Below are positions 12,799-51,533 of a stretch of DNA of 64,000 bases, piece after piece. The position numbers and the translations under genes were made by a program. Position 1 is the stretch's first letter; the number at the start of each line of letters is the position of its first letter. Under the pieces are notes generated by a model, which did not search any database, was not told where the DNA came from, and was given only the letters and a program-made list of their open reading frames with translations. This stretch comes from Stomorhina lunata (Eukaryota > Arthropoda > Insecta > Diptera > Rhiniidae). Where the stretch lies: assembly GCA_933228675.1 (NCBI GenBank), contig OW121741.1:120986418-121050417 (forward strand), given 5' to 3'.

Positions 12799-13179
12799 TT
12801 AGGCTAAGGCATTTACTAAGCCATAGACTAAAACATAGACTAAGGCATAGACTAAGGCATAGACTAAGACATAGACTAAGACATATTTAGACTAAGACAT
12901 AGACTAAGACATAGACTAAGACATAGACTAAGACATAGACTAAGACATAGACTAAGACATAGACTAAGACATAGACTAAGACATAGACTAAGACATAGAC
13001 TAAGACATAGACTAAGACATAGACTAAGACATAGACTAAGACATAGACTAAGACATAAACTAAGACATAGACTAAGACATATACTAAGACATAGACTAAG
13101 ACACAGACTAAGATATAGACTAAGACATAGACTAAGACATAGACTAAGATATAGACTAAGATATAGACCAATAAATAGA
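12799..13179 (+). repeat. 12-bp minisatellite array 3 (left part of the split array)
   Basis: ACATAGACTAAG units in direct orientation, degenerate at the left edge and regular from about 12890. The array stops abruptly at the retrotransposon 5' end and resumes at 18384. It is the left portion of a single original array of about 2.5 kb. Confidence 0.96.
13166..13179. repeat. Target-site duplication, left copy
   Basis: GACCAATAAATAGA, identical to 18384..18397. It is a variant of the 12-bp repeat (compare GACTAAGACATAGA) and flanks the retrotransposon. The preceding A also matches but belongs to the A-tail on the right side. Confidence 0.93.
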
Positions 13180-13917
13180 TATGGGACTTTCTTTAGAGGG
13201 GCACATGGTGCGGAAAGTTTCTGATTGTCACTCACTTGGGAGCGTCCAGAAACAATTCCTCTACAAGACTGTCCAAGCAGCTCACTACTTCCGATCCTAG
13301 ATCAAGTATGTCCCGGGCAATGGCTTCATCGGTCCCCTCCGATAGCTAGCTAGAGTGAGAAGGCAAACAGTTGGTGCAACCTGAATGGCTTTTAATAGCG
13401 TCTCAGGCATCTAGGCAATTAGACATAATTTGCTGAAGCACGACTGAAAATCTCGCCGAAAGGCATTAAGACCAAGACCAGCACGGTCTTAATTATGGTA
13501 TTTCTGGAAACTAGATATGATTTAGAATGAACCCTGGGCTGACGTTTGTAGTATTCTGGAACCTGAATATGTAGAAGTGAAATTCTACAGAAATGGCTTT
13601 CAGGCTAATGCTACACACGCCTCCGTCCCATTAAAACTTGGCAAATCTTAGAGCACGTTCAAAAATTGTCACCATTTAGTTGGCGGTGTAGGTTCGGATG
13701 ACTCTTCCCGATTAGCACGGATCTGGCTCTGACATAGCGCCCCATGAAGGCAATATGCCAACCCTAGCATGGCCTCCCTGCATGCATAGATAACCATGGG
13801 ATATAGACATAAATATACCATGGCCTCTCTGCATGTATAGATAACCATGGGATTTATACGTAACTATACAACAATTCGAGATAGCGACTCTAAGTTGGGA
13901 CCCACTTATATAGAAAC
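13180..13917 (+). promoter_or_regulatory. Retrotransposon 5' UTR (probable internal promoter region)
   Basis: This 738-bp leader is clearly less AT-rich than the flanks. It contains two adjacent ~50-bp direct copies (13769..13818 and 13819..13868; CATGGCCTC[C/T]CTGCATG and AACCATGGGAT shared). Non-LTR elements of this type usually carry their promoter internally, so this leader is the likely place for it. No specific promoter motif is proven here. Confidence 0.6.
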
Positions 13918-15198
13918 ATGAGCACTACACAAACACATAAACAGAATAACGGAGTAGAGACGGAATCTCCGATTAGCGCCTTAAACCCATTTAAGAAAAG
14001 CGGCGTAACGCCAAGAACACCAGAGGAGAAAAAGGATGAAATTAGCGAGAGGCCGACGGCAGTAAATTCATCCGCTGCCATGAATAGACTCGGTGATCTC
14101 ATTTCAACCCTAATGAGTTTTGTCAAAACCAAAAATAATGTTCACCACACTATTAAGGAGCAGGTTCGTGCAATAAAGGTAACCTACAATACCGCAATGG
14201 AGGAACTTCAAACTATGGTTGATAACCCAAAAAAAGTTGACAAGGAGGCACAAACATCGCCGGCTATTCAAAAAAAGCCAGAGGAGATAATGAAAAGATC
14301 GAGAGAACAGAGTGAAGAGTCACCAACAAAGGTACCTCAAAAAAAAATGAGGAAACAATCACAACATGCAAGGGAAGAGGAAACCCCTTCAACCTCCTCT
14401 CGTGCAAGGGAAAATTCCGCCCCATCAACGGAATGGAAAACCGTAACGCGAAAAAAAAGTAGTAGAGAAAAGAAAGCTCGGCCAAACGCGATGATAATTT
14501 CTGCAAAAGGCGAAAGCACATATGCGGATATTCTGCGTAAGATAAAGGCAGACCCAAACCTACATGAGTTTGGAAAAAGTGTTAAGACAGTCCGCAGAAC
14601 GCAAAAAGGTGAACTATTGCTGGAAATAAACAGTATAAATAAGGAGGAAGTGAACAATTTCAACGAACTCGTTGGAAAATCACTACAGGGATCAGCCGAA
14701 ATAAAAAGCAAGATAAGCGAGACCCTAATAGAATGTAAAGACCTCGATGAGATAACAACAGTAACAGATATCTGCACTGCTTTGGAGGAACAACTGGGAA
14801 TCTCAGGCCTTGGCGCTAATGTTGTTAAAAATTTACGCAAAGCATATGGTGGTACGCAAATAGCAAAAATTTGTTTACCAAACACAGTTGCACAAAAAGC
14901 CTTGAAAATAGGTAAGCTCAAAATTGGTTGGTCAATTTGTAGAGTGCGCAAGTGCATTACACTTAAACGATGTTTTAGATGTCTCGAGTTTGGACATATA
15001 TCTAGTACTTGCAAAAGTAGCTTTGATCGTTCAAATCTGTGCAGAAAATGTGGCGAGCCTAATCACATAGCAAAAAACTGTATCCTGGAACCAAGATGCA
15101 TGTTCTGTGTGGCCAACAAAGAGCCAGAAATTAAACACACTGCTGGCAGTAGCAAATGCCCAGTATTCAAAAAGGCGCTCAGTTTACGTAATAAATGA
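13918..15198 (+). CDS. Retrotransposon ORF1 protein (gag-like, CCHC zinc knuckles)
   Basis: This 426-residue protein is predicted to bind element RNA and form the cytoplasmic ribonucleoprotein. The N-terminal half is polar and rich in Lys, Glu, Ser and Thr, including a basic/acidic low-complexity stretch at about residues 100-200. A conserved central region (about 190-350) resembles the RRM-like region of R1/LOA ORF1 proteins. The C-terminus carries two CX2CX4HX4C knuckles (C352, C355, H360, C365 and C375, C378, H383, C388) and a third variant finger (C394, C397, H407, C414). The ATG at 13918 follows the leader and is the first in frame. The stop overlaps the ORF2 start by ATGA (15195..15198), which suggests termination-coupled reinitiation for ORF2. 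There are no frameshifts or internal stops. Confidence 0.93.
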   Translation: MSTTQTHKQNNGVETESPISALNPFKKSGVTPRTPEEKKDEISERPTAVNSSAAMNRLGDLISTLMSFVKTKNNVHHTIKEQVRAIKVTYNTAMEELQTMVDNPKKVDKEAQTSPAIQKKPEEIMKRSREQSEESPTKVPQKKMRKQSQHAREEETPSTSSRARENSAPSTEWKTVTRKKSSREKKARPNAMIISAKGESTYADILRKIKADPNLHEFGKSVKTVRRTQKGELLLEINSINKEEVNNFNELVGKSLQGSAEIKSKISETLIECKDLDEITTVTDICTALEEQLGISGLGANVVKNLRKAYGGTQIAKICLPNTVAQKALKIGKLKIGWSICRVRKCITLKRCFRCLEFGHISSTCKSSFDRSNLCRKCGEPNHIAKNCILEPRCMFCVANKEPEIKHTAGSSKCPVFKKALSLRNK

Positions 15199-18173
15199 AA
15201 ATATTACAATTAAATCTGAACCACTGCGCAGCGGCTCAAGACCTTCTTAGCCAAACAACTAGAGAAATGGATATTGACGTTGCAATAATAAGTGAGCAGT
15301 ATAAAAATCTCTTTAGCGGTATATGGCAAAAAGACAATTTAGGAAAAGCAGCAATATGGACGTGTGGCAAGCTCCCATTTCAAGAAACAATGAAGTACCC
15401 ATCAGACGGCTTTGTTAGAGTAATGATTAAAGGAGTACATATATATAGCTGCTACATTTCCCCAAATGCTGCACAAAGTGAATTTGAAAACTTTATAGAT
15501 AGGCTCGTGTCAGACGCTACGAAATTCAATCCAAAAATTATTGCTGGCGACTTTAATGCTTGGGCAGTGGACTGGGGGTCACCCTTCACAAATGCCAGAG
15601 GTCGTAAACTCCTTGAAGCTTTCTCACAATTAGACCTGGTATTGTCTAACACTGGAAGCATTCAAACATTTAGAAGAGGTGCAACTGGTTCTATTGTTGA
15701 CATCACGTTCACTAGCCCATCTCTGGCAAGAAATATAAATTGGAAAGTAAGTGAGCACTATACACATAGCGACCACCAGGCTATATTATATAACATCGAA
15801 GAAATCAACCCCTCTAAATCAAAAAATCGTTCCCAAACGATAGGCTGGGCCCAAGAGAAATTTGATACAGAATCTTTCTTGGCCGAATTCTCATCCAGGT
15901 TAACACCCGGAGCTACACACGATGTAACAAGAAAACAAATAACTGAAGCTCTAAAAAAAGCATGTGATGCATCAATGCCTAGAAAAGTACAAGCAAATCG
16001 CAGGAAACCAAATTATTGGTGGAACTCCGAAATTGCTGAACTAAGAAGAGCCTGTCTTAAAGCAAGACGTATATTCCAAAGGGGGCAGTCACGACAAGAT
16101 TCCGAGAGTAAACGTCAACTATACATACAAACTAGGCGTAACTTTCAAAAGGCTATAAGGAAAAGCAAACAGGAAAGTTTTAAACTGCTTTGCAATGAAG
16201 TTGATTCCAATCCATGGGGAAATGCATATCGCATAGTTATGACAAGGTTAAGAACCCAAAGAACCCCAGAAGTAACATGCCCATACCTCCTTAGAAAAAT
16301 AATAGAAGTATTGTTTCCAAAAGGGCAGCCGACGCAGAGTATGCCGATATATCCTATAGCCGATATAGAAGAAGTGACAGAAGAAGAAGTTCTCCAAACC
16401 TGCTCCCATATTGGTGACAAGAAAGCCCCTGGTTTAGATAGAATTCCGAACAAAGCACTTAAAACTGCGCTTAAGGCTAATCCACAAGTATTTGCAGATG
16501 TCTTTAACTCCTGCCTTCGCACTGGAGAATTTCCAGAAGTATGGAAAAAGCAAAAACTGGTCTTAATTCCAAAGCCCAACAAACGCCTAGGCGAGCCGTC
16601 ATCGTACCGACCAATATGTCTATTGGATACTCTAGGTAAAGTCCTAGAAAGAGTGATTTATAATAGACTGCTAGAAGCTGTGGAAAGTGTAAATGGACTC
16701 TCGGTCAGACAGTATGGTTTTCGTAAATCAAGATCGACGATAGATGCGATAAATCAAGTGAAAACAATTGCAGAAAATGCGATAAAGGGTAAAGGAGCGA
16801 ATAAAAAGTACTGTGTGGTTGTTACTTTAGATATTAAAAATGCTTTTAATAGCGCTGGCTGGAATTTTATTATGTCAACACTAAGAAACCTAGATGTCCC
16901 AAATTACATTATTAGAATTGTAGGAGACTATTTCAACAACAGAACACTCTGGTATAATACGGATGATGGTATGAAATCATATGAAACCTCAGCAGGAGTA
17001 CCCCAGGGCTCAGTACTTGGGCCATTACTATGGAATGTAATGTATAACGGAGTGCTGGAGTTGAATATCCCTGAAGAGGCGAATATTATAGGATTCGCAG
17101 ACGATATAGCTATAGTCGTATGTGCACGATTCCTAGATGAAGTTCAAATGTATACCAACGAGACAATTAGTATTGTGAAATCATGGCTAGATAAAGCCGG
17201 TTTAGAACTAGCAGAACATAAAACAGAAGCAGTTTTAATTAGTAACCGTAGGAAAAAAGAAACATTAAATATCCAAGTAGGTGAGACTATTATAACGTCA
17301 TCCCCTTCTCTGAAGTACCTAGGAGTTATGATTGATGATAAACTAAACTTTAAGGCGCATATGGAATACGCATATAAAAAAGCCGCAGCAGTTAGTAATG
17401 CTCTCAGCAGAATTATGCCAAATGTTGGAGGGCCAAGACAAAGCCGTAGAATCTTATTAACTAGAGTAACAATGTCGATCTTACTGTATGGAGCTCCTAT
17501 TTGGGCCAGGTCCATTAAAAACACGACACGTAAAAACATAATCTCACTATTCCGTCAGAGTTGCCTCCGAGTCTGTAGCGGATACAGAACAATATCTCTT
17601 GAAGCTTCAGCGATAATTGCTGGTATGATCCCTATTGACTTGTCTTCCTTTGAGGCACATAGCATTTATGTAGCCAAGGAAAACAATAGAGAAGAAAACC
17701 CCCGCGAGAGAAAACAAATTGAAAGAGATGATACTATTGTGAAATGGCAAAGAAGGTGGGAAAATACAGAAAAAGGTCGATGGACCTACAAACTGATTCC
17801 AAACATTAGTAAATGGATAACACGTAAACATGGTGATGTTAATTACTACTTAACACAATTCTTAAGCGGCCATGGAGGGTACAGAGGATATCTATTCAAG
17901 TATGGTCTAGATAATTCTCCAAACTGTCCAATGTGTTCAATAACTGAAGATGCAGAGCATGTAGTTTTTAACTGTCCAAGATTCCAAGTACAGAGAAACT
18001 TGATAATGAGCGAAGTGGGAGACCCTATAAATCCCAACAATATAGTAGATTTAATGCTACAATCTAAAGAAAAATGGGCTCTAGTGTCAAATTTTATATG
18101 TGAAATACACCTTCAACTAAGGAATGAAGAAGACATTCGCAAAGAAAATAACAGAGCTGTATCAAATATGTAG
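15195..18173 (+). CDS. Retrotransposon ORF2 polyprotein: APE-type endonuclease and reverse transcriptase
   Basis: This 992-residue enzyme nicks target DNA and copies element RNA onto it (target-primed reverse transcription). Residues 1-205 form an exonuclease-endonuclease-phosphatase domain: LNLNH at the N-terminus, SEQ near 33-35, GDFNAW with D119 and N121, and SDH with D193 and H194. The reverse transcriptase lies at about 400-720: KAPGLD, YRPICLL, QYGFRKSRST, motif A with D546, motif B AGVPQGSVLGP, motif C FADD (D636, D637), then LKYLGVMID. A C-terminal CX2CX7HX4C finger (C911, C914, H922, C927) is typical of R1/LOA-type elements. I see no obvious RNase H domain. All recognised catalytic residues are intact and the frame is open throughout, so the element may be active or only recently silent. 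Confidence 0.95.
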   Translation: MKILQLNLNHCAAAQDLLSQTTREMDIDVAIISEQYKNLFSGIWQKDNLGKAAIWTCGKLPFQETMKYPSDGFVRVMIKGVHIYSCYISPNAAQSEFENFIDRLVSDATKFNPKIIAGDFNAWAVDWGSPFTNARGRKLLEAFSQLDLVLSNTGSIQTFRRGATGSIVDITFTSPSLARNINWKVSEHYTHSDHQAILYNIEEINPSKSKNRSQTIGWAQEKFDTESFLAEFSSRLTPGATHDVTRKQITEALKKACDASMPRKVQANRRKPNYWWNSEIAELRRACLKARRIFQRGQSRQDSESKRQLYIQTRRNFQKAIRKSKQESFKLLCNEVDSNPWGNAYRIVMTRLRTQRTPEVTCPYLLRKIIEVLFPKGQPTQSMPIYPIADIEEVTEEEVLQTCSHIGDKKAPGLDRIPNKALKTALKANPQVFADVFNSCLRTGEFPEVWKKQKLVLIPKPNKRLGEPSSYRPICLLDTLGKVLERVIYNRLLEAVESVNGLSVRQYGFRKSRSTIDAINQVKTIAENAIKGKGANKKYCVVVTLDIKNAFNSAGWNFIMSTLRNLDVPNYIIRIVGDYFNNRTLWYNTDDGMKSYETSAGVPQGSVLGPLLWNVMYNGVLELNIPEEANIIGFADDIAIVVCARFLDEVQMYTNETISIVKSWLDKAGLELAEHKTEAVLISNRRKKETLNIQVGETIITSSPSLKYLGVMIDDKLNFKAHMEYAYKKAAAVSNALSRIMPNVGGPRQSRRILLTRVTMSILLYGAPIWARSIKNTTRKNIISLFRQSCLRVCSGYRTISLEASAIIAGMIPIDLSSFEAHSIYVAKENNREENPRERKQIERDDTIVKWQRRWENTEKGRWTYKLIPNISKWITRKHGDVNYYLTQFLSGHGGYRGYLFKYGLDNSPNCPMCSITEDAEHVVFNCPRFQVQRNLIMSEVGDPINPNNIVDLMLQSKEKWALVSNFICEIHLQLRNEEDIRKENNRAVSNM

Positions 18174-18383: not shown

Positions 18384-20565
18384 GACCAATAAATAGACTA
18401 AAACATAGCCTAAGACATAGACTAAGACATAGACTAAGACATAGACTAAGACATAGACTAAGACATAGACTAAGACATAGACTAATACATAGACTAAGAT
18501 ATAGACTAAAACATAGACTAAGACATATACTAAGACATAAACTAAGACTTAGACTAAGTGATAGACTAAGACATAGACTAAGACATAGACTAAGACATAG
18601 ATTAAGACATAGTTTAAGACATAGACTAAGACATAGACTAAGACATAGACTAAGACATAGACTAAGACATAGACTAAGACATAGACTAAGACATAGACTA
18701 AGACATAGACTAAGACATAGACTAAGACATAGACTAAGACATAGACTAAGACATAGACTAAGACATAGACTAAGACATAGACTAAGACATAGACTAAGAC
18801 ATAGACTAAGACATAGACTAAGACATAGACTAAGATATAGACTAAGATATTGACTAAGACATAGACTAAGACATAGACTAAGATATAGACTAAGCAATAG
18901 ACTGAGACATAGACTAAGACAAAGCCTAAGACATAGACTAAGACATAGACTAAGACATAGACTAAGACATAGACTAAGACATAGACTAAGACATAGACTA
19001 AGACATAGACTAAGACATAGACTAAGACATAGACTAAGACATAGACTAAGACATAGACTAAGATATAGACTAAGACATAGACTAAGATAAATACTAAGAT
19101 ATAGACTAAGACATAGACTAAGACATAGACTAAGACATAGACTAAGACATAAACTAAGACATAGACTAAGACATAGACTAAGACATAGACTAAGACATAG
19201 ACTAAGACATAGACTAAGACATAGACTAAGACATAGACTAAGACATTGACTAAGGCATAGACTAAGACATAGACTATGACATAGACTAAGACATAGACTA
19301 AGACATAGACTAAGACATAGACTAAGACATAGACTAAGACATAGACTAAGACATAGACTAAGATATAGACTAAGATATAGACTAAGACATAGACTAAGAC
19401 ATAGAATATGACATAGACTAAGACATAGACTAAGACATAGACTAAGACACAGACTAAGACATAGACTAAGACATAGACTAAGACATAGACTAAGACATAG
19501 ACTAAGACATAGACTAAGACATAGACTAAGACATAGACTAAGACATAGACTAAGACATAGACTAAGACATAGACTAAGACATAGACTAAGACATAGACTA
19601 GGACATAGACTAAGACATAGACTAAGACATAGACTAAGACATAGACTAAGACATAGACTAAGACATAGACTAAGACATAGACTAAGACATAGACTAAGAC
19701 ATAGACTAAGACATAGACTAAGACATAGACTAAGACATAGACTAAGACATAGACTAAGACATAGACTAAGACATAGACTAAGACATAGACTAAGACATAT
19801 ATTAAGACATAGACTAAGACATAAACTAAGATATAGACTAAGACATATACTTAGACATAGACTAAGACATAGACTAAGACATAGACTAAGATATAGACTA
19901 AGACATAGACTAAGACATAGACTAAGATATAGACTAAGATATAGACTAAGAAATAGACTAAAACATAGCCTAAGACATAGACTAAGACATAGACTAAGAC
20001 ATAGACTAAGACATAGACTAATACATAGACTAAGATATAGACTTAAACATAGACTAAGACATATACTAAGACATATACTAAGACATAGACTGAGACATAG
20101 ACTAAGACATAGACTAAGACATAGACTAAGACATAAACTAAGACATAGTCTAAGACATAGACTAAGACATAGACAAAGACATAGACTAAGACATAGACTA
20201 AGACATAGACTAAGGCATAGACTAAGACATAGAGTAAGACATAGACTTAGACATAGACTAAGACATAGACTAAGACATAGACTAAGACATAGACTAAAAC
20301 ATAGATTAAGACATAGACTAAGATATAGACTAAGATATAGACTAAGACATAGACTAAGACATAGACTAAAACATAGCCTAAGACATAGACTAAGACATAT
20401 ACTAATACATAGACTAAGATATAGACTAAAACATAGACTAAGACATATACTAAGACATAGACTTAGACATAGACTTAGACATAGACTAAGACATAGACTA
20501 AGACATAGACTAAGACATAGACTAATACATAGACTAAGACATATATTTAGACATGGACTAAAACA
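18384..20565 (+). repeat. 12-bp minisatellite array 4 (right part of the split array)
   Basis: About 180 units of ACATAGACTAAG continuing array 3 after the retrotransposon; 18384..18397 is the right target-site duplication. Variant strings repeat as higher-order blocks: TAAAACATAGCCTAAGAC followed by a TAATACATAG unit and a TATACTAAGAC unit occurs near 18399, 19957 and 20366. The 832-codon minus-strand frame through it (Leu-Ser-Leu-Cys repeats) is an artefact. Confidence 0.97.
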
Positions 20566-25259: not shown

Positions 25260-27830
25260 CATTTTTTATAGAAGAAAAAATTATTTGTAGAGAAAATGTT
25301 TGCTATTGTTTACCATTTTCTTAAAATTTTTAATAGAAAAAATTTATACCGATATTTTCCTGAAATATTTTATAAAACAATTTGATCTTAAAATATTCTA
25401 TAGAAAAAATTTGTACCTAAATTTTTCAATAGTAAAAACTTGTACCGAAATTTATCGAAAAAATTTTGTACAGAAATTTTTCTTTTAACAAAGTTTGTAC
25501 CTAAATTTTTCTATAGAAAAAATTTGTACCGAAATTTTTCTAAACAAAAAATTTGTACTGAAATTTTTATTTCTATAAAAAGTTTCAATAAAAAAATGTC
25601 TATAAAAAATTTTTTATGGAAATATTTTTATAGAAAATTTTCTATAAAAAAATTTTAGTCAAAAAATATCTTTAGACTAATTTTAATCAAAAATTTTTTA
25701 TAGAAAAATTTGTATCAAATATTTTATATAAAAAATTTTTTTTTTCATTTCATTTGCATCAACAATTTTCTTTAACAAAAAATTTTCATCAAAAGTTTTC
25801 TATAGAAATATTTCTATGAAAAATTTTCTATAAAAAAAAGAAATTTTTTGAATTATTTTTATCAAAAATTTTTTATTGAAAAATGTGTATCAAATGTTCT
25901 CTATAGAAAATTTTTTTTCAAATGTTTTTGGTAGAAAAATTTTCATCAAAAATTTTTTATAGAAAAATTTTCATCAAAAATTTTCCTCAGAAATTTCTAT
26001 GGAAAATTTTTCATAAAAAAATTGTCTAAAAATAACAAAAATTGTACGGATGTAAATATTTTCGTCAAAAATTTTCATCAAAAATTTTCTATAGAAAAAT
26101 CTTCATTATAAATTGTCTATAAAAAAATTGGGATTCTTAGTGCAATACACTACAGTAAAACTTTTTAGTTAAAAAGTTTTCATCAAAAACTTTCTATAGA
26201 ATTTTTTTTTATAGAAAAATAACATCAACAGCTTTTTATAAAAAAATTTTCATCAAAAAATTTCATAGAAAATTTTCTATAGAAAGATTTTCATCAAAAA
26301 TTTGATATAAAATGTTTTTTTGTCAAAAATTATTATAAAATTCAAAATGTTTTTTATTTAAAAAAATTTTCCTTTCAAATTTTCTTAAGAAAAATTTTTA
26401 TCAAAAATTTTCTTTAAAAGAAAATTCAATCACAAACTTTCTATAGAAAAATTTTTATCAAAAATTTATCTAGAGCAAATTTTCATCAAAAATTTGCTAT
26501 CGATATATTTTCATCAAAAATTTGCTATCGATACATTTTCATCAAAAATTTTCTATGGATACATTTTCATCAAAAATGTTCTATAGAAAAATTTTCATCA
26601 AAAATGTTCTATAGAAAATTTTTCATCAAAAATTTTCTATAGAAAAATTTTCATCAAAAATTTTCTATAGAAAAATTTTCATCAAAAATTTTCTATAGAA
26701 AAATTTTCATCAAAAATTTTCTATAGAAAAATTTTCATCAAAAATTTTCTATAGAAAAATTTTCATCAAAAATTTTCTATAGAAAAATTTTCATCAAAAA
26801 TTTTCTATAGAAAAATTTTCATCAAAAATTTTCTATAGAAAAAATTTTATCAAAAATTTTCTATAGAAAAAATTTCATCAAAAATTTTTTATTGAAAAAT
26901 TTTCATCACAAATTTTTTATTGAATAATTTTTATCAAAAATTTTTTATAGCAAAATTTTTATCAAACATTTTTTTCAGATAAATTTTCATAAAAAATTTT
27001 CTATAGAAAAATTTTCATCAAAACTTTTCTATAGAAAAATTTTCATCAAAAATTTTCATCAAAAATTTTCTATAGAAAAATTTTCATCAAAAATTTTCCA
27101 TAGAAAAATGTTCATCAAAAGTTTTCTATAAAAAAATTTCATAAAAAATTTTCTATAAAAAAATTTCATCATATATTTTTTATAGAAAAATTTTCTTCAA
27201 AAATTTTCTATAAAAAACTTTTCATCAAAAGTTTTTATAGAAAAATTTTCATCAAAAATTTGGTATTGAAAAATTTTTATCAAAAATTTTCTATAGAAAA
27301 ATTTTCATCAAAAATTTTCTATAGAAAAATTTTCATCAAAAATTTTCTATAGAAAAACTTTTATCAAAAATTTTCACCAAAAATTTTCTATAGGAAAAAT
27401 TTTATCAAAAATTTTTGATAGAAAAAATTTCATCAAAAATTTTTTATTGAAAAATTTTTATCAAAAATATTTTATAAAAAAATTTTTATCAAAAATTTTC
27501 TATAGAAAAATTTTCATCAAAAATTTTCTATTGAAAAATTTTCATCAAAAATTTTCTATTGAAAAATTTTCATCAAACATTTTCTATTGAAAAATTTTCA
27601 TCAAACATTTTCTATTGAAAAATTTTCATCAAAAATTTTCTATAGAAATATTTTTATCAAAAATTTTCTATAGAAACATTTTCATCAAAAATTTTCTATA
27701 GAAAAATGTTCATCAAACATTTTTAATAGAAAAATTTTCATCAATAATTGCTATAAAAAAATGTTCATTTAAAATATTCTATAGAAAAAGTTTTATCAAA
27801 AATTTTCTATAAACAATTTATTTAAAAATT
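25260..27830. repeat. AT-rich palindromic satellite array, CATCAAAAA-linker subfamily (copy 1)
   Basis: About 2.6 kb of units TTTTCATCAAAAATTTTCTATAGAAAAA (about 28 bp), very regular between 26580 and 26870. The left end (25260-25700) has a TTTGTACC/CGAAATT linker. A foreign block at 26127..26166 (TGGGATTCTTAG ... CACTACAGTAAAAC) matches the sequence just downstream of the hammerhead motif at 32553..32592. The right flank, TTTGACCTTCAATCATACAA, is shared with the array ending at 32250. Confidence 0.93.
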
Positions 27831-27882
27831 TTATTTGACCTTCAATCATACAATTAATATAATGATATTTATAATAACTGCC

Positions 27883-28818
27883 AAAAATTTCCAATACATA
27901 GAACTTTCTTAGTCTAACAGAAGAATTGTATTTAGGGATTTTCTAAATATGAACAACATGAATTTGTGAATTAGTTTAAGAATTAATGTCTGTTTATGAT
28001 TCTCTTTTGTTAGGATTTGTACGTGTTTATTTCGATGTTGAAGCCTATTTGTGTTGACTTGGCAGAAAACCGCAAATAATGATTAATTTAGCCAGAAATC
28101 AAATGTTTAATGAACTGAAACTGGAATTTCCTTAAACATTTGTAACAGAACATTAAGTGACAAAATAAGAGGGCGGCTGAACAAATTTTGTAACATTTGA
28201 TCTTTCGTTAACCAAATGAAGATTATTCATTGTGTTTGCAAAAGTTTGGCTTTAAATAGTAAATACGGGGGAATATGAGATTTCTGAGTGAGTAGAAAAG
28301 TGACTTAAGTCCAATTTTTTTTATTACATAAAAAATTGTTCTATTATTTTAATAAGAAATTCCCATTCGGTCTAAAATTTAAAAATTTGTTAAAGACTTT
28401 AAAATTTTTTTAATTTTACTTAAGTCAGTTTAGAGGTATGTATTATAAACATATTTTATTATTTGGGAACAATTTAGATTTTATCTTAATTTGTTTGACT
28501 TTCTTATTTAGAGAATCATTAAATTATATAAATTGTATTAATTTAATCCTTGTGCCACATAATTGCTTTAATTAAATACATATTTTCTTTAATATTTAAA
28601 ATTGTGTGAATAAATGTCCCCCAACTTCTGAATTTCCTTGTAATCAAAACCATTAATTTAACTTATTTTATCATTGACACAATTTCAACTATTTGTCAAA
28701 TTATGCTAAAACCCCTTAGTAAAAAGACTTTAAACTGTCTAGTCATGTTTACACTTCAATTTAATATTCATTTGAGTAAATTCAATATAATCTTTCGTTT
28801 ATTGAATGCTAATCTTTA
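27883..28818. repeat. 936-bp tandem duplication, copy 1
   Basis: Appears identical base for base to 28819..29754 by eye. It contains no recognisable gene. The breakpoint shows a short A-rich microhomology (AAAA). Confidence 0.93.
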
Positions 28819-29754
28819 AAAAATTTCCAATACATAGAACTTTCTTAGTCTAACAGAAGAATTGTATTTAGGGATTTTCTAAATATGAACAACATGAATT
28901 TGTGAATTAGTTTAAGAATTAATGTCTGTTTATGATTCTCTTTTGTTAGGATTTGTACGTGTTTATTTCGATGTTGAAGCCTATTTGTGTTGACTTGGCA
29001 GAAAACCGCAAATAATGATTAATTTAGCCAGAAATCAAATGTTTAATGAACTGAAACTGGAATTTCCTTAAACATTTGTAACAGAACATTAAGTGACAAA
29101 ATAAGAGGGCGGCTGAACAAATTTTGTAACATTTGATCTTTCGTTAACCAAATGAAGATTATTCATTGTGTTTGCAAAAGTTTGGCTTTAAATAGTAAAT
29201 ACGGGGGAATATGAGATTTCTGAGTGAGTAGAAAAGTGACTTAAGTCCAATTTTTTTTATTACATAAAAAATTGTTCTATTATTTTAATAAGAAATTCCC
29301 ATTCGGTCTAAAATTTAAAAATTTGTTAAAGACTTTAAAATTTTTTTAATTTTACTTAAGTCAGTTTAGAGGTATGTATTATAAACATATTTTATTATTT
29401 GGGAACAATTTAGATTTTATCTTAATTTGTTTGACTTTCTTATTTAGAGAATCATTAAATTATATAAATTGTATTAATTTAATCCTTGTGCCACATAATT
29501 GCTTTAATTAAATACATATTTTCTTTAATATTTAAAATTGTGTGAATAAATGTCCCCCAACTTCTGAATTTCCTTGTAATCAAAACCATTAATTTAACTT
29601 ATTTTATCATTGACACAATTTCAACTATTTGTCAAATTATGCTAAAACCCCTTAGTAAAAAGACTTTAAACTGTCTAGTCATGTTTACACTTCAATTTAA
29701 TATTCATTTGAGTAAATTCAATATAATCTTTCGTTTATTGAATGCTAATCTTTA
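28819..29754. repeat. 936-bp tandem duplication, copy 2
   Basis: Direct, apparently identical copy of 27883..28818. Lack of divergence in AT-rich noncoding DNA means a very recent duplication, or two haplotypes or read errors collapsed into the assembly. Confidence 0.93.
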
Positions 29755-31309
29755 AAATGACAACAAAATCTTAAAATCTATGAGAAATTATATCTGTATT
29801 GTAGAGACGAATATCCTTATACTTGAACTCGTTATTGCCAAAAGAAAAACAGCCATAAATATGAAACAAATTCAAAGAAGAAAAGAACAATTATTTTCCC
29901 TCACAAGAAACTTTCTATTTCCAAATCCTTGGCAGTAAAATCGTTAACATTTAGAAAAAAAAAAGAAAAACTCAACAAGAGGCAATCAATAATGTTTGAA
30001 AGACAGGCGGACAGACACACAGACATACGAACTGCCAGTTGGTTTGGTCCTGCCTTAACTGTTTCGTTTTGTAGTTTCTTCGTTTCTTTTTAAATGCTTT
30101 AGGGATTTAAGCATAAATGTCAAACAGTAGGACAATGCAAATACTAATAAGAGTTAAATTTTTAAAATTTAATTTCTGAATTCTTAAGGTTAGAGTTAGA
30201 TTCACTTAGTCTATGAAGTTCATTGTGTTACTATAAACTATTCAGAATCATGTACTTGATTAATACCGTTGAAAAAGTTTGATACTAAGGGGGATAGAAT
30301 ACCGCTTTGTGGGGTCCCAACAAATCTATTTAAGTCTGACGACCCTAATTGAGACTTAATATGTCTTTAATTTTTTTTCCAAAATATTTTTAAAAAGATT
30401 GTATTATTTTTTGTAAAATTATTTTTTTTTTTATAAATATACGCCCACTGTCCTCTTTAAAAATTCTACATTTTCCTTTACCGAAATTGAATTGCTCACA
30501 CATTCATACGTTTTTTTTTTAAATTCACACATTCATACAATTAGTTACATATTAGTTATTGATTACAATAATAAGTTCTTATAATGTCAATAAAAAATGA
30601 AAACGATTTTCAATGTCAAATTTATAAGACAGATTTTGGGAAATATCTAAAAAACACTCATTAGAGACGAGAAATTTGAAATTGAAGAAAAAGTCAATTG
30701 GGAATTATATAAAGAAGCCTAGAAAGAAAGTATTTCATTTTAAAATTACAACTTAAAATAAGATTTAAATTATCTGATAAAAAAGTATTTTATTCAGTCA
30801 AAGCTGAAAACTGAAGCTGAACGTAGACCGAATACCTATACTTTTAAATGGTTTTTATTGATAAAGAAATTTTACGTTGGTTTAAGTCATTTTTGAAGTA
30901 ATATTGGTCAAATTTGAATCAATTATCATGGGCTTTATTGTGTGTTTATATTGAACTTTTTTGAGACATTTTTCATCAAATCAAATATATAAAATGGAAT
31001 ACCTTTATTTTAAAAGTGGATTAATTCAATTTTTTTAAATTGATTGATTGAATTGGTTTCGCGTTTTAGTGTTTTTAAAAATTTGATTAAATTTTTAATT
31101 TTAATCTGAACCTATAAAATTTATTTTTTCATAAAAATAAATTTACGGAAACCATTTTGGAAATGGGGTTTTCAGGAGATTAAATGAACTTATACCACTT
31201 TAAAAAAAAAATTTAAAATATTTATTTTTTTAATTGAAAAGTAGATGGGACTTAAACTGTTTTTAAAACAATTAAAATGTGGGAAATAAAGAAATGATTG
31301 AAAAGTGTT
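29755..31309. other. Intergenic AT-rich DNA
   Basis: About 1.5 kb without a gene, apart from the small reverse-transcriptase relic at 30238..30354. The rest is low-complexity, single-copy-looking sequence. Confidence 0.55.
30238..30354 (-). pseudogene. Relic of a LINE reverse transcriptase (motif B region)
   Basis: The minus strand encodes about 38 residues including SSDLNRFVGTPQSGILSPL. This matches the conserved GxPQGGxLSPLL motif-B region of non-LTR reverse transcriptases, with the usual second Gly replaced by Ser. An in-frame stop follows at 30238. No other reverse-transcriptase motif is legible around it, so this is an old, heavily decayed fragment. The clade cannot be assigned. Confidence 0.6.
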
Positions 31310-32250
31310 TTAAATAATTTTCTATATACAACTTTTTATCAAAAATTTTCTAAAGAACAATTTTTATCAAAAATTTTCTTAAGAAAAATTTTTATCAAAT
31401 ATTTTCTATAGAAAATTTTTTTTTTTAAATTTTCTATAGAAAAATTTTCATCAAAAATATTTTATAGAAAAATTTCATCAAAATTTTTGTCAAAAGTTTT
31501 TTTAAAAAAAATTTTCATCAAAAGTTTTCTATAGAAAAATTTTCATCATAAATTTTGTATAGAAAAATGTTCATCAAATAAATTCTACAGGCAAATTTTT
31601 ATCAAATATTTTTTATAGTCAAATTTTTATTAAAAATTTTCTATAGAAAAATTTTCATCAAAAATTTTCTATAGAAAATTTTTAATGAAAAATTTTCTAT
31701 GCAAAAATTTTCATCAAAAATTTTCTATAGAAAATTTTTAATGAAAAATTTTCTATGCAAAAATTTTCATCAAAAATTTTCTATACAAAAATTTTCATCA
31801 AAAATTTTCTATACAAAAATTTTCATCAAATTTTTTCTATACAAAAATTTTCATCAAAAATTTTCTATACAAAAATTTTCATCAAAAATTTTCTATACAA
31901 AAATTTTCATCAAAAATTTTCTATAGAAAAATTTTCATCAAAAATTTTCTATAGAAAAATTTTCATCTAAAATTTTCTATAGAAAAATTTTCATCAAAAA
32001 TTTTCTATAGAAAAATTTTCATCAAAAATTTTCTATAGAAAAATTTTCATCAAAAATTTTCAATAAAAAAATTTCATCATAAATTTTTTTTTAGAAAAAT
32101 TTTCATGAAAAATTTTCTATAGAAACATTTTCATCCAAAATTTTCTATAAAAAAATTTCATCATAAATTTTTTATAGAAAAATTTTCCTCAAAAATTTTC
32201 TATAAAAACATTTTTTACAAATATTTTCTATAAAAAATTCATTTCGAAAT
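31310..32250. repeat. AT-rich palindromic satellite array, CATCAAAAA-linker subfamily (copy 2)
   Basis: Same subfamily as 25260..27830. It includes a run of about seven units with CTATACA instead of CTATAGA (31695..31920), a local variant amplified in tandem. It ends in the shared flank TTTGACCTTCAATCATACAA (about 32254), about 180 bp before the hammerhead motif. Confidence 0.93.
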
Positions 32251-32433
32251 TTTGTTTGACCTTCAATCATACAATTAATGTTATTTTTAATAAAACTGAA
32301 AAATGTTTGTGTGTTTCTGTTCGGATGATAATCTTCGCTTTATATTAATATTTGTTGGACACAATAATAATAATTCATATTTATTCAGTTCCTCAAATTA
32401 TACATAATGTGTGGTTTTCGCTCTGTCTAGAAT

Positions 32434-32500
32434 TAGGGATAAGTCTTCTGATGAGATGGCCTGACCAACCATCGAAACGCGTCGAGGAAAGGTTTCCCCA
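32434..32500 (+). ncRNA. Candidate type I hammerhead ribozyme
   Basis: All core elements of a hammerhead are present in order. CTGATGA lies at 32448..32454. Stem II is GATGG (32455..32459) pairing perfectly with CCATC (32469..32473) around a 9-nt loop. GAAA is at 32474..32477, then the minimal stem III CGCG with GTC at 32481..32483, the expected cleavage site. Stem I forms from TCTT (32444..32447) with GAGG (32484..32487, two G-U pairs) and, beyond an internal loop, GGGA (32436..32439) with TCCC (32495..32498). The short stem III (GAAACGCGTC) matches type I hammerheads known from Penelope-like elements and retrozyme-like repeats. It would self-cleave a plus-strand transcript. No Penelope-type protein is visible nearby. 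Confidence 0.82.
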
Positions 32501-32552
32501 CCAACATTTTTTGGTTTTATTAAAAAACTATTTATAATAAATAATTGTAATA

Positions 32553-32592
32553 AATTGGGATTCTTAGTTCAATTCACTACAGTAAAACTTTT
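32553..32592 (+). repeat. Hammerhead-associated flank repeat
   Basis: AATTGGGATTCTTAG followed by a CACTACAGTAAAAC word; recurs with few differences at 26127..26166 inside the other CATCA-linker array. It marks a shared repeat unit linking the ribozyme and the satellite. Confidence 0.8.
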
Positions 32593-32887
32593 ATATTAAA
32601 TGTTTGATGTCCCAAAATTTTGATAAGCCTTTTAAATTTAGATTAAAATTTTTGGTTTTGTCTGAAATTTTTTTTACTTCTGAATCTACTTCTAATCTAA
32701 AAACAAATAAAATAAAAAAATTTCTTTCTAAAAATGTTGCCAAATATTTTTCATATTAAGATTAAAAAGAATCAGTAATTCGTTATTTTTTGAGATAAAG
32801 ACTATCCAGTAGTAAATATTTATCAATGTTTTTTAAGTCTGCTAATATTTTACTTTTTTCTTAGTATTTTAATTAAAAGAGTGGACT
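32593..32887. other. AT-rich intergenic DNA
   Basis: A short interval between the hammerhead-associated repeat and the inverted-repeat element. Nothing is recognised. Confidence 0.5.
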
Positions 32888-34019
32888 TTACGGTGACAAT
32901 AAAATTTTTTTTCTTTGATTTCAAATGTTTTTCTTCGGAATATTGTGACACTAGGTCTAAAAGCATAGATTTAAAAATTTCAGTCAAATCGGACAATGTT
33001 CTATGGGCGCGCATCAGGACCAACGTTTAAGAGGGCATTAGTATAGGGAAAAATGTGTTATTTTTTTGTTTTTGCAAAATTTAGACCAAAAGTAAACAAT
33101 TTTTAAAAGAAAACATAATAGCATATTAAAGAAAACTAATACAGCTTTATTTCAAATCATAAAGTACAAATATCCATGAAGTAGTTTAAAAGTTATTGCA
33201 GTTTTCCCTCAAAAATGCATGTCCTTGAAAACGCGCCTAAGGATATGCACCAAAAATTGTATGTTGTAAATAAAGAAATTCCTAAGTTAGACATGGTTTA
33301 TCATTTAATGGCTTTCTTCTAGTAAATAGCTCAGTTTTGCTTAAATAAAATCAAATTTACTTAGTTTTTTTCTTGTTGGAAAATGGTACCTTTTTCTCAG
33401 GTCGGTTTCAAAAATCATTTTTTAATTTTTTGAAAATTTGTTTCAACAAATATTACAAATTTAGAATTTGCTCTCCAGTATGTTTAAACAGATAAATATG
33501 AAAATGAAGCCCAAAAAAATTAGGTCGATATCTTGAACCTTTTCGCCATACCTGCGATTTCAAATTGAAGAATTTCGAGAAAATTTAAATTTTTGGGCTA
33601 AATTCGAGTAAATGCTCAATAAATTTTACTTGTATTAAATTTTAACATAAAAAAAGAAATAATTAATATTATTGCCTAGCTTATCGAAAATCTATGCTGA
33701 AAGGTTTTTTAGTATTGGACTAGATTAACCCTTTCTTCACCGATGGTCAAATGTCAAAATTTGGATTTCCTTAAAATTTTAATAGCGAGATGACGAAATA
33801 TCAAGTAATAATTAGCGAATTTTAATAAAAAAAGCATGAAAAAGCATTGTTTTTGGCAAGAATAAACTTTGGACCCGATGCGGGCCCATAAAACGTTGTC
33901 CGATTTGACTCAATTTTTCAGAACTAAACTTTTAGACCTATTGTTACAATATTTTGTTGTTGAAAAAGTTATAAAATTCGAAAAAAAAATTTCTTTCATA
34001 CAAAAAATTGTCACCGTAA
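32888..34019. mobile_element. Element with long inverted repeats (foldback or MITE-like)
   Basis: The arms 32888..33029 and 33863..34019 are imperfect inverted repeats of roughly 140-155 bp. TTACGGTGACAAT at the left outer edge corresponds to ATTGTCACCGTAA at the right outer edge, and the GTCAAATCGGACAATGTT and AACGTTGTCCGATTTGAC segments pair inside. The 830-bp centre has no transposase or long frame, so it would be non-autonomous. A target duplication outside the arms is not evident, so the true ends may differ. The arms have diverged by point changes and small indels. Confidence 0.7.
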
Positions 34020-34397: not shown

Positions 34398-34778
34398 TGG
34401 ATGTGCCTTGGTTTTCTAAGACGGTGCAAGATATACTCCATTTCATCGGATATTCTTACTATTTACACCACCTACCGACCGAATGGAATGGAATACAACT
34501 CTCATGTAGGGACATGTGCTTCAAAGTCTATTTTGAAGCTTATTGATCGAGTGCAGAAGAGGGCGAAAGTGCTCATGGGTGACAGTAGGGTATCTATTGA
34601 TTCACTAGAGCACCGTCGCAATGTGGGTTGGGGTTGTGGCACACTGTTCTTTCGTAACTACGTAGAAATGTGCCTTAACGAAATCAGGGAACTTGTTCCC
34701 GAAATTCCGACTTTTTTACGCAATACACGTAATTCTGCTAGAGTTTATTCCTTTGTGGTCAATTGGCCTTTGGTATAA
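34398..34778 (+). pseudogene. LINE ORF2 C-terminal fragment (reverse-transcriptase thumb and connection region)
   Basis: About 120 residues contain GFLRRCKIYS..DILTIYTTYRP, MEYNSHVG, LIDRVQKRAKVL and SIDSLEHRRNVG, then NEIRELVP. This is the region downstream of the reverse-transcriptase catalytic core in Jockey/CR1-group LINEs (typically MEYxSHVW, LDxVQKRA, LxHRRxV). The catalytic motifs are missing upstream, the usual Trp after SHV is lost, and the frame ends at NWPLV before the normal C-terminus. This is therefore a 5'-truncated, degenerate copy. Its second half is repeated at 35648 by the 1084-bp tandem duplication. Confidence 0.8.
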
Positions 34779-35647
34779 GTAGTTTCTATGTATACAACTA
34801 CTTCCCTAGTGATAGCAGGGACTATGGATGAGTGTGAACTAGTGTCTACTACCGAAGCTTTAGCAAACTTAAAGTAATAAGCCTCTTTTCCATTGCATAT
34901 ATAATTCTATCGACCATATTGTGTGAAACTCTAAAACTCAAAGTTAACGAAATAATTGGGACCTAGCAATGTGACAAATCTGCCTGGAGATCCTGGAGAA
35001 GACCAAGATAAATAATTATACACATATCTCCAATGAAGGTGCGTATTTCACTTTAAAAAATAACAGTTCATTTGTTGAGCTTGAGAAGGATTTATATCAA
35101 TAGCTCTATTTCTATTACAAATTTATTATTCCATATATTTCACCAGTGCGTATGATTGATATTCAAACATTTTTTTCTTAAATAACACTCAGTACTTGGT
35201 AGACCGAGCCTTGCTCGGAGCTTTATGATAAGCATTTTGAGGAAAATTTTAATGTTTTTATATATTTTATATTATAAAGTGCTAAAATAAATTTAGAGGA
35301 AAGACATTGTAGAAATATTCAGTTAATTTTGAATTATTTGATTTATTTTGTCCGACCAACACATAGTTTGCATAGTTTACAGTTTAACTCATTTTGAATA
35401 ATTTTGGAAATTATTCATATCAACAGAAACCTCTGTCGACTCATGCGCAACAACTTTGCTAAAGATTATAGTCTGATCAAATGCACAGTTTACGATTTAA
35501 TTCATTTTGAGTAGTTTTCTGTGGCGCCACCTGTCGGACTTTGCTTATTCCAATTCATAAACCTTCTTCGGCTTATCCGTAACAACTTTGCTGAAGATTA
35601 TAGCATGATTAAATTGACTTTGAGTAAATTTCAGTAGCGCCACCTGT
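34564..35647. repeat. 1084-bp tandem duplication, copy 1
   Basis: Apparently identical to 35648..36731. It starts inside the LINE fragment at CGAAAGTGCTCATGG and ends within a CGCCACCTGTCG word. The pentamer CGAAA occurs at 34564, 35648 and 36732, consistent with a microhomology-mediated or slippage breakpoint. Confidence 0.95.
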
Positions 35648-36731
35648 CGAAAGTGCTCATGGGTGACAGTAGGGTATCTATTGATTCACTAGAGCACCGT
35701 CGCAATGTGGGTTGGGGTTGTGGCACACTGTTCTTTCGTAACTACGTAGAAATGTGCCTTAACGAAATCAGGGAACTTGTTCCCGAAATTCCGACTTTTT
35801 TACGCAATACACGTAATTCTGCTAGAGTTTATTCCTTTGTGGTCAATTGGCCTTTGGTATAAGTAGTTTCTATGTATACAACTACTTCCCTAGTGATAGC
35901 AGGGACTATGGATGAGTGTGAACTAGTGTCTACTACCGAAGCTTTAGCAAACTTAAAGTAATAAGCCTCTTTTCCATTGCATATATAATTCTATCGACCA
36001 TATTGTGTGAAACTCTAAAACTCAAAGTTAACGAAATAATTGGGACCTAGCAATGTGACAAATCTGCCTGGAGATCCTGGAGAAGACCAAGATAAATAAT
36101 TATACACATATCTCCAATGAAGGTGCGTATTTCACTTTAAAAAATAACAGTTCATTTGTTGAGCTTGAGAAGGATTTATATCAATAGCTCTATTTCTATT
36201 ACAAATTTATTATTCCATATATTTCACCAGTGCGTATGATTGATATTCAAACATTTTTTTCTTAAATAACACTCAGTACTTGGTAGACCGAGCCTTGCTC
36301 GGAGCTTTATGATAAGCATTTTGAGGAAAATTTTAATGTTTTTATATATTTTATATTATAAAGTGCTAAAATAAATTTAGAGGAAAGACATTGTAGAAAT
36401 ATTCAGTTAATTTTGAATTATTTGATTTATTTTGTCCGACCAACACATAGTTTGCATAGTTTACAGTTTAACTCATTTTGAATAATTTTGGAAATTATTC
36501 ATATCAACAGAAACCTCTGTCGACTCATGCGCAACAACTTTGCTAAAGATTATAGTCTGATCAAATGCACAGTTTACGATTTAATTCATTTTGAGTAGTT
36601 TTCTGTGGCGCCACCTGTCGGACTTTGCTTATTCCAATTCATAAACCTTCTTCGGCTTATCCGTAACAACTTTGCTGAAGATTATAGCATGATTAAATTG
36701 ACTTTGAGTAAATTTCAGTAGCGCCACCTGT
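35648..36731. repeat. 1084-bp tandem duplication, copy 2
   Basis: Direct copy of 34564..35647. It includes a partial second copy of the LINE fragment (35648..35862, starting at KVLMGDS and open to the same stop) and the left part of the ~125-bp tandem repeats. Confidence 0.95.
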
Positions 36732-37090
36732 CGAAATTTCTTCATACCAACTAAGAAACCTCCGTCGGCTCATGTGCAACAACTTTGCTTAAGATTGTAG
36801 CATGATTAAATGTACAAATTACGATTAAATTGACTTTGAGTAAGTTTCTGTAGCGCCACCTGCCGAAATTATTCATACCAACTAAAAAGCCTTCGTCGGC
36901 TCATGCGCTACAACTTTGCTAAAGATCATAGCATGATCAAATCTACAGTTTACGATTTAATTAATTTTTAGTAATTTTCAGTAGCGCCATCTGTCGGAAA
37001 TTAGTCTTATCAACTTTAAAACCTTCGCCGGCTTATCCGCAACATCTTCGCTAAAGAGCATAACACAATCAAATTCACAGTTTACTATTC
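36490..37090. repeat. ~125-bp tandem repeat (CGCCACCTGTCGG units)
   Basis: Five diverged units, each with a CCTYYGTCGGCTCATGCG-like word, CAACAACTTTGCTAAAGATTATAG, a GATTTAATTCATTTTGAGTA-like word and TAGCGCCACCTGTCGG. Units begin near 36511, 36639, 36760, 36888 and 37020. Two further units are present in duplication copy 1 at about 35427..35647. It is less AT-rich than its surroundings and is probably transposon-derived. Confidence 0.85.
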
Positions 37091-43412: not shown

Positions 43413-45110
43413 ACTAGAACTGAACTAGAAATGAACTAGAACTGAACTAGAACTGAACTAGAACTGAACTAGAACTGAACTAGAACTGAACTAGAACTGA
43501 ACTAGAACTGAACTAGAACTGAACTAGAACTGAACTAGAACTGAACTAGAACTGAACTAGAACTGAACTAGAACTGAAGTAGAACTGAACTAGAACTGAA
43601 CTAGAACTGAACTAGAACTGAACTAGAACTGAACTAGAACTGAACTAGAACTGAACTAGAACTGAACTAGAACTGAACTAGAACTGAACTAGAACTGAAC
43701 TAGAACTGAACTAGAACTGAACTAGAACTGAACTAGAACTGAACTAGAACTGAACTAGAACTGAACTAGAACTGAACTAGAACTGAACTAGAACTGAACT
43801 AGAACTGAACTAGAACTGAACTAGAACTGAACTAGAACTGAACTAGAACTGAACTAGAACTGAACTAGAACTGAACTAGAACTGAACTAGAACTGAACTA
43901 GAACTGAACTAGAACTGAACTAGAACTGAACTAGAACTGAACTAGAACTGAACTAGAACTGAACTAGAACTGAACTAGAACTGAACTAGAACTGAACTAG
44001 AACTGAACTAGAACTGAACTAGAACTGAACTAGAACTGAACTAGAACTGAACTAGAACTGAACTAGAACTGAACTAGAACTGAACTAGAACTGAACTAGA
44101 ACTGAACTAGAACTGAACTAGAACTGAACTAGAACTGAACTAGAACTGAACTAGAACTGAACTAGAACTGAACTAGAACTGAACTAGAACTGAACTAGAA
44201 CTGAACTAGAACTGAACTAGAACTGAACTAGAACTGAACTAGAACTGAACTAGAACTGAACTAGAACTGAACTAGAACTGAACTAGAACTGAACTAGAAC
44301 TGAACTAGAACTGAACTAGAACTGAACTAGAACTGAACTAGAACTGAACTAGAACTGAACTAGAACTGAACTAGAACTGAACTAGAACTGAACTAGAACT
44401 GAACTAGAACTGAACTAGAACTGAACTAGAACTGAACTAGAACTGAACTAGAACTGAACTAGAACTGAACTAGAACTGAACTAGAACTGAACTAGAACTG
44501 AACTAGAACTGAACTAGAACTGAACTAGAACTGAACTAGAACTGAACTAGAACTGAACTAGAACTGAACTAGAACTGAACTAGAACTGAACTAGAACTGA
44601 ACTAGAACTGAACTAGAACTGAACTAGAACTGAACTAGAACTGAACTAGAACTGAACTAGAACTGAACTAGAACTGAACTAGAACTGAACTAGAACTGAA
44701 CTAGAACTGAACTAGAACTGAACTAGAACTGAACTAGAACTGAACTAGAACTGAACTAGAACTGAACTAGAACTGAACTAGAACTGAACTAGAACTGAAC
44801 TAGAACTGAACTAGAACTGAACTAGAACTGAACTAGAACTGAACTAGAACTGAACTAGAACTGAACTAGAACTGAACTAGAACTGAACTAGAACTGAACT
44901 AGAACTGAACTAGAACTGAACTAGAACTGAACTAGAACTGAACTAGAACTGAACTAGAACTGAACTAGAACTGAACTAGAACTGAACTAGAACTGAACTA
45001 GAACTGAACTAGAACTGAACTAGAACTGAACTAGAACTGAACTAGAACTGAACTAGAACTGAACTAGAACTGAACTAGAACTGAACTAGAACTGAACTAG
45101 AATTGAACTA
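43413..45110. repeat. 11-bp satellite array (GAACTAGAACT)
   Basis: About 154 head-to-tail copies of an 11-bp unit over 1.7 kb. Almost every copy is identical; exceptions are GAAATGAACTAG near 43427, GAAGTAG near 43576 and the last unit at 45100. The unit resembles no other repeat in the window. Such homogeneity means recent amplification or strong homogenisation. Confidence 0.98.
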
Positions 45111-51399: not shown

Positions 51400-51533
51400 C
51401 TTAGCAAAAAATAAAAAAAAACACAAATTTTTATATTTTATATATATAAAACTTGTCCCTAATATAAAATTTTCAAATTCTTTAAAAAAAAAACTAACAA
51501 GAGTGATGAGCTATGAAAGTTAATGGCACTTAC

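Follow-up and report, generated by a model that had tools for sequence, protein, structure and literature searches.

The window, the whole 64,000-nucleotide stretch of DNA analysed here, contains a type I hammerhead ribozyme motif embedded in a dispersed non-coding repeat. This copy of the repeat is probably an old copy of a non-LTR retrozyme that was moved in trans by the enzymes of Penelope-like elements (PLEs). The repeat resembles a PLE in the way it seems to have been inserted and a non-LTR retrozyme in its build; having no ORF, it is not itself a PLE. Self-cleavage, expression, circle formation, binding by a PLE protein and trans-mobilisation are what we infer from the anatomy of the copies.

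All the pieces of a hammerhead are present at 32434-32500, where the first-pass annotation had placed them, and are laid out as distal stem I, internal loop, proximal stem I, core, stem II and a loopless stem III:

32436-32498, plus strand: type I hammerhead (sequence, written-out structure and 1313 genomic places with the core pattern)
32448-32454, plus strand: core strand CTGATGA, C3 to A9 (sequence and genome pattern count)
32455-32473, plus strand: stem II, GATGG/CCATC (arms 32455-32459 and 32469-32473), with a 9-nt loop (sequence)
32477-32482, plus strand: stem III strand ACGCGT, a 6-nt palindrome (sequence and self-duplex energy)
32483-32484, plus strand: predicted cleavage between C17 (32483) and G (32484), inferred from the hammerhead core

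The core from CTGATGA through stem II to GAAACGCGTC spans 32448-32483, with GAA (32474-32476) directly after stem II. Stem III comprises the pairs A15.1-U16.1, C-G and G-C with no loop, and its palindrome could also permit pairing between two molecules. The cut site after C17 is followed by GAGG. Stem I of the window copy is weak near the cut (UCUU/GAGG, with two G-U pairs) and continues through an internal loop (UAAG/AAAGGUU) into GGGA/UCCC (32436-32439/32495-32498). The intact unit of the repeat can be drawn with UCCUC/GAGGA and GGGA/UCCC as stem I, containing a UAA/AAGGUU internal loop, a stem II of 5 bp and a stem III of 3 bp. The unit thus has the three stems, open at stem I, of a type I hammerhead, and the invariant core (CUGANGA ... 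GAA, A15.1-U16.1 and H17), the core-position labels being those we take to apply; stem I is weaker in the window copy. GC content is 46% at 32400-32499, against 25% at 32300-32399, 18% at 32500-32599 and 25% in the window as a whole. An ATG in stem II was rejected as an ORF start, as a stop follows after two codons.

The pattern CTGATGAN{4,40}GAAACGCGTC occurs at 1313 places in the 728-Mb assembly (659 forward and 654 reverse), against none for its reversed control in the same assembly. We regard this contrast as decisive: judged by the pattern, the motif is a real hammerhead signature and not a product of chance. A loose descriptor (4-bp stem II, 2-bp stem III, 4-bp stem I, wide loops) is expected to match 0.034 times per two-strand window, a rate taken from 1.47 Gb of first-order Markov sequence, and it matches once in the window. 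Exact-core scans of viral contigs and prokaryote genomes gave no matches. Requiring outer anchors on both sides of the core leaves 992 places (495 + 497; control 0). In the first 100 of these the inner string is identical in 49, carries substitutions in 44 and indels in 7; by our own count the core bases are kept in 86, the core being broken in 11 rows with core substitutions and in 3 of the 7 indel rows (H17 changes to A or U were not scored as breaks). These places give no sign of selection on the core, with 1.0 distinct changes per core position versus 1.17 elsewhere. We count this against our reading; such similar rates are as expected of copies decaying neutrally after landing.

A covariance check of the motif with Rfam, as suggested in the first-pass annotation, returned nothing at the gathering score. 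No Rfam hammerhead family matches at E<=10 in 3.5 kb. Within 141 bp the only match is to a type III family (14.3 bits, E 1.4) in a different register, and two unit copies in locus L010 reach 15.6 bits to RF00008, whose cut-off is 48.5. The short loopless stem III is probably part of the reason that Rfam misses the motif, so the missing match is weak evidence against a ribozyme. Folded alone, the window motif does no better than shuffles (z +0.60; 142 of 200 fold as well) and its minimum free energy (MFE) structure is not the hammerhead. The hammerhead fold lies above the MFE both in the unit (-13.9 vs -18.4 kcal/mol) and in the window copy (-8.5 vs -15.2 kcal/mol), which we also count against our reading. 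In a 350-nt context of the intact unit, stem I pairs with a probability of about 0.06 (about 6%), compared with 0.92-0.98 for stem II, under an energy model that ignores tertiary contacts. The ACGCGU self-duplex, at -7.5 kcal/mol compared with -1.7 (ACGU) and +1.6 (AUAU) for the forms found in PLEs of this genome, suits cleavage as a dimer.

Twenty places read at length share a non-coding unit of 485-489 bp, whole in head-to-tail copies, with one type I hammerhead per unit; the copies are tandem and 5'-truncated. L012 provides an example of a natural two-unit copy. When the unit is tripled, no stretch free of stops exceeds 85 codons, and no coding ORF is present. As a small non-coding repeat that occurs in tandem and has a single type I hammerhead, the unit agrees with non-LTR retrozymes; their usual size is about 150-450 bp, against 485-489 bp here, and a derivative array of 185-bp units exists. 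The first-pass annotation had anticipated related copies elsewhere in the genome, a type I hammerhead with a short loopless stem III, and a non-autonomous ribozyme-bearing repeat: the first is borne out by the 1313 places, the second is supported by the genome pattern and the reading of multiple loci, and the third by the shared non-coding, multicopy unit. The derivative array, which has at least nine units of about 185 bp, lies at L123:153-1801 (G000:C1:9582300-9584100). In the units read there, part of the hammerhead 3' half (ACGCGTTTCGATGGTTGG or a sequence very close to it) is also present in inverted orientation, so RNA made from them would pair strongly with itself.

In a numbering based on a 488-bp unit whose position 1 is the first base of CTGATGA, the window holds the following pieces of the repeat:

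32290-32637, plus strand: 5'-truncated copy, unit 331 to 488 and then 1 to 195 (92.7% over 354 aligned columns)
26122-26173, plus strand: 52-bp 3' fragment, unit 108-159 (96.2% identity, E 1e-18)
62492-62742, plus strand: old decayed copy in pieces, unit 323-382, 436-8 and 46-120 (78-82% identity)

In this numbering the predicted cut falls between unit positions 36 and 37. The 52-bp fragment stops at the first of two 3' ends of the repeat (end 1) and sits inside another AT array. Among 63 copies, drawn from the 3'-end instances described below that end at or beyond unit 140 and have at least 120 bp upstream, median identity to one unit over a 260-bp core is 98.8%, with 23 at 99% or above and 11 below 97%; the copies appear mostly young. 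The copy carrying the hammerhead in the window, at 94.1% over this core, is eighth from the bottom of the ranking and seems to be an old, decayed landing with a weak stem I.

An AT-rich array adjoins this copy:

31316-32239, no strand assigned: AT-rich 28-bp tandem array beside the copy (tandem-repeat listing)

The array is likely to be part of the landing site and not of the element; its right border recurs at 27809-27888, with no copy of the repeat there. The first-pass annotation took this satellite neighbour to be meaningful, but proximity seems mostly coincidental: TCTATAGA occurs within one substitution in 31 of 85 copy 3' flanks (60 bp), against backgrounds of 0.31 of window stretches and 0.22 in the far ends of 20 loci. 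Any link between satellite and copies is weak, and TCTATAGA arrays are common in the genome. The satellite as a preferred target, suggested by a count by eye, was rejected on the full flank count, which shows at most a weak excess. Also rejected were MITE-like terminal inverted repeats at 32270-32311 and 32499-32549, the right arm of which lies inside the repeat and both of which are AT-rich, and a larger element sharing flanks with the 25.6-27.8 kb array, where 26122-26173 is the repeat fragment and 27809-27888 the array border.

Several other features of the window were recorded. Exact tandem duplications, 100% identical, occupy 27883-28821 and 28819-29757 (939 bp) and 34564-35652 and 35648-36736 (1089 bp), and are either very recent or assembly artefacts. 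Four 12-bp-repeat arrays (AGACTAAGACAT; 6613-7600, 8937-11581, 12789-13179 and 18393-20565) flank two long ORFs at 13894-18170 with zinc-knuckle, endonuclease and reverse-transcriptase domains, which on our reading form a LINE. An 11-bp array (ACTAGAACTGA) at 43413-45110 has 154 copies with 99% matches. Shortly past the repeat copy, two stretches of about 126 bp in inverted orientation (32904-33029 and 33863-33990; 83.5% over 91 bp) perhaps mark the ends of another element. Two 7tm_3 exons lie on the minus strand (51523-51930 and 54849-55238) with AT arrays between them; the former best matches GABA-B receptor subunit 2, then subtype 1, and these GABA-B-receptor-like exons would fit an animal host but nothing narrower.

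The way in which copies of the repeat end points to PLE machinery. The 3' ends of 98 distinct instances were placed on the unit, using loci L001-L028 and L064-L122 and the window and dropping instances with less than 230 bp of downstream sequence; every instance had been selected for containing the hammerhead, which we count against the result. Forty-five end at unit 145-167 and 40 at 185-201, with none at 168-184; of the remainder, 8 run into the next unit and 5 stop short of unit 140. The two clusters are about 38 bp apart and one motif recurs at both, as AAAACTTTTTAAT and AAACCTTTTTAAT. The repeat carries the optional 3' tail of about 30-40 bp that is characteristic of PLEs. It also shares with PLEs head-to-head inverted copies and partial tandems. 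The first 100 of the 1313 places all fall within the initial 59.5 Mb of one contig; of the 99 gaps between neighbours there, 18 are below 2 kb, where 0.36 would be expected in all if placement were random. Ten of these close pairs are on the same strand (9 at 485-489 bp and 1 at 1080 bp) and 8 are head-to-head, while none of the 18 is tail-to-tail. A copy that includes the hammerhead and starts upstream of it requires a template that was either circular or had not been cut. Across 19 loci there is a weak excess of target duplications (about 8-10 bp would be expected of a PLE), the observed mean being reached in 6 of 400 permutations. We count this weakness against our reading; one clear duplication, of 9-12 bp, is present in L010.

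The predicted folding energy of unit 37-205 is -33.1 kcal/mol, where its shuffles average -22.7 (z -3.09; 1 of 300). The arms of the hairpin predicted in the intact unit correspond to the following positions in the window:

32555-32560, plus strand: hairpin 5' arm, TTGGGA
32610-32615, plus strand: hairpin 3' arm, TCCCAA, inside the tail

In the intact unit, five of the six TTGGGA/TCCCAA pairs have predicted probabilities of 0.89-0.98 and the sixth 0.38; ATCAAAA/TTTTGAT pairs at 0.65-0.93, and outer GGTTT/AAACC pairs are not predicted (0.01-0.04). The hairpin would enclose end 1 in its loop and leave end 2 just beyond its base. It is absent from the MFE structure of the window copy.

The genome also encodes candidate partners. 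A generic PLE reverse transcriptase, used as the query, gave 131 matches (E to 1.7e-84), many of them in open frames, up to 864 aa. Once these are merged into 112 copies, the pairs with gaps below 4 kb number 15 head-to-head, 0 tail-to-tail and 6 same-strand, and those with gaps below 2 kb number 11, 0 and 2, respectively; a count on 85 of the 131 rows gave 13, 0 and 2. Thirty-two of the 131 matches were read as loci, 20 of them with only 1.1-1.4 kb downstream, and since some repeat or overlap one insertion (L033 and L034, for one) locus counts are not independent.

An intact minimal hammerhead lies downstream of the reverse-transcriptase match in 20 of the 32 PLE loci. Their ending is GAAACGTH or GAAATATH, with a loopless ACGU or AUAU; stem II, preceded by one extra base, occurs in seven different but paired versions by our own reading. 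The GAAACGCGTC end, which the first-pass annotation regarded as a PLE form, is not that of the PLEs read in this genome. In a further nine loci the form is a degenerate CTTGAAAA. Of the last three, L049 has an altered core, L052 lacks a hammerhead, and at L040 nothing but an adjacent copy of the repeat is seen. In the degenerate loci (L032-L036, L057 and L059-L061) CTTGAAAA replaces CTGANGA, while GAAATAT is kept and stem II is mostly pairable; the ribozyme has apparently been lost or altered in these groups, several of them beside long open frames.

Judged by eye, two 3' ends are present in 7 of the 10 PLE groups with at least two loci, and in L032-L063 the first 3' end of the PLE groups lies within a hairpin whose letters vary between groups. 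Of 8 tail-bearing PLE sequences, 7 have GACC ahead of end 1 opposite GGTC in the tail, and the eighth has GGCC opposite GGCC (both by eye); the corresponding helix appears in the MFE structure of all four PLE sequences folded. Counted against this, it is the best helix in only 4 of 8 PLEs, and a helix across end 1 beats shuffles in none of nine sequences (47-222 of 400 as good). The layout of the 3'-end hairpin is the same in PLEs and the repeat, but the letters differ (TTGGGA..TCCCAA in the unit).

Homology of the unit to PLE terminal repeats was not found in the 32 loci read from the 131 matches, where similarity is confined to AT-rich stretches of 33-34 bp (L042 and L056); matches to the unit at L039 and L040 are taken for nearby old copies of the repeat. 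No ORF with PLE reverse transcriptase and GIY-YIG is present in the unit or beside its copies in the window and L001-L031. Pfam places GIY-YIG at only 2 places in the genome, one SLX1-like and one PLE-like by our own reading, and this low count is uninformative because the PLE loci read have GIY-YIG ends that are missing from the Pfam list.

The unit might instead be the pLTR (pseudo-LTR) of an extinct or unsampled autonomous PLE, spread as coding-less derivatives, in which case its hammerhead would be of the PLE kind with stem III lengthened, and there would be no independent retrozyme. We consider this unlikely. The structural hallmarks are those of PLEs, just 32 loci of the 131 matches were read, and pLTRs alone can carry foreign DNA and suffice to insert a foreign gene, according to the available text of PMC3846280. 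However, the unit has no homology to the ends of the PLE groups read, its hammerhead differs in build from the PLE forms with their extra base before stem II and ACGU or AUAU, and the four C1 PLE matches in the same stretch have, by eye, none of the 100 listed repeat places closer to them than 200 kb.

It is improbable that the repeat is a SINE-like element moved by a LINE such as that at 13894-18170. LINE-type reverse transcriptases are present, and 5' truncation and short target duplications fit LINE machinery, but LINE products do not usually include tandems of exact length, head-to-head pairs or a pair of 3' ends separated by 38 bp. In addition, 20 ends inspected by eye have no clear poly-A or simple-repeat tail (AT-rich flanks blur the picture), and ARAGORN found no tRNA in four loci. 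Spread as a satellite by DNA-level amplification only, with an incidental ribozyme, is very improbable: tandem copies and the array of at least nine 185-bp units exist, but within the first 100 of the 1313 places 81 of the 99 gaps between neighbours reach at least 2 kb, and the copies are dispersed and 5'-truncated with common 3' ends. A chance look-alike, with which the lack of an Rfam match would agree, is refuted by the 1313 places against none in the reversed control.

We therefore favour a non-LTR retrozyme moved by PLE enzymes, for which the following pathway is proposed. Multimeric transcripts would cut themselves at the hammerhead, perhaps via pairing of two ACGCGU palindromes, and a host RNA ligase would join the monomers into circles. 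A PLE protein would then bind the 3' hairpin, nick AT-rich DNA and begin cDNA synthesis at either of the two 3' ends. Tandems would arise where a circle or uncut multimer was copied for more than one round, early stops of copying would give 5' truncation, and a second, inverted copying event would give head-to-head pairs. The window copy would be the decayed landing of such an insertion, its stem I now weak.

A link between retrozymes and PLEs was proposed from their common type I hammerheads and co-occurrence in genomes, as the available text of PMC7761336 has it. The copies described here bear marks of PLE insertion and so touch on which enzymes move animal retrozymes; they would supply structural evidence for the link in one genome and make it directly testable, with two defined partners in that genome. 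No report of PLE tails on a retrozyme was found in the literature searched, in which journal coverage was partial. What is new here is the insertion anatomy of the copies, as read from their sequences: two 3' ends, the orientation pattern and the end-spanning hairpin. More tentatively, and with somewhat less than even confidence, we suggest that animal retrozymes are parasites of PLEs, the 3' hairpin with its two initiation sites imitating the PLE start structure with no shared sequence and borrowing PLE reverse transcriptase and nuclease. If so, the copies of this repeat would themselves reveal which partner it uses.

Small dimer-type PLE hammerheads, reportedly described by Lunse and colleagues in 2017, are said to have a diminished stem III with a palindromic strand, as does the repeat. 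The repeat differs from that form in having three base pairs in stem III (ACGCGU) rather than two, no extra base before stem II, and an internal loop in stem I.

The Penelope/Poseidon PLEs resemble the repeat in several respects in the available text of PMC11167929 and PMC3846280: both lie in AT-rich surroundings, may end in a 3' tail of about 31-40 bp and form partial tandems as well as inverted head-to-head copies, and the PLEs carry a hammerhead in their terminal repeat. The same text of PMC11167929 matches the optional 30-40 bp tail to the stretch between two reverse-transcription starts, while that of PMC3846280 describes a rotifer PLE with a 31-bp tail and head-to-head pLTRs, head-to-head being the most frequent inverted arrangement of rotifer PLEs. 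Unlike PLEs, the repeat has no reverse-transcriptase or GIY-YIG ORF, no similarity to the PLE ends read here and a different hammerhead build.

The non-LTR retrozymes of animals (Cervera and de la Pena 2020, PMC7229834) are likewise non-coding, tandem and of high copy number with one type I hammerhead per unit, and insects are named among their hosts. Against the available text of that report, the repeat differs in size (485-489 bp against 170-400 nt), in its loopless stem III formed by a 6-nt palindrome, and in the PLE-type alternative 3' ends and head-to-head pairs of its copies. Hammerheads are similarly found in multicopy interspersed repeats of Aedes aegypti, a dipteran, and other animals (Perreault et al. 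2011, PMC3088659), likened here by description, and in the dispersed or tandem non-coding repeats of Schistosoma (Sm-alpha and W elements) and newt satellites (PMC8490949, PMC6155905). In the available text of these sources, no insertion anatomy is seen for the Aedes aegypti repeats and no alternative 3' ends for the Schistosoma and newt hammerheads, both of which are described for the repeat here. Flies, the house fly included, also carry type III hammerheads (PMC7936874, available text), in which the open end is stem III and not, as in the repeat, stem I.
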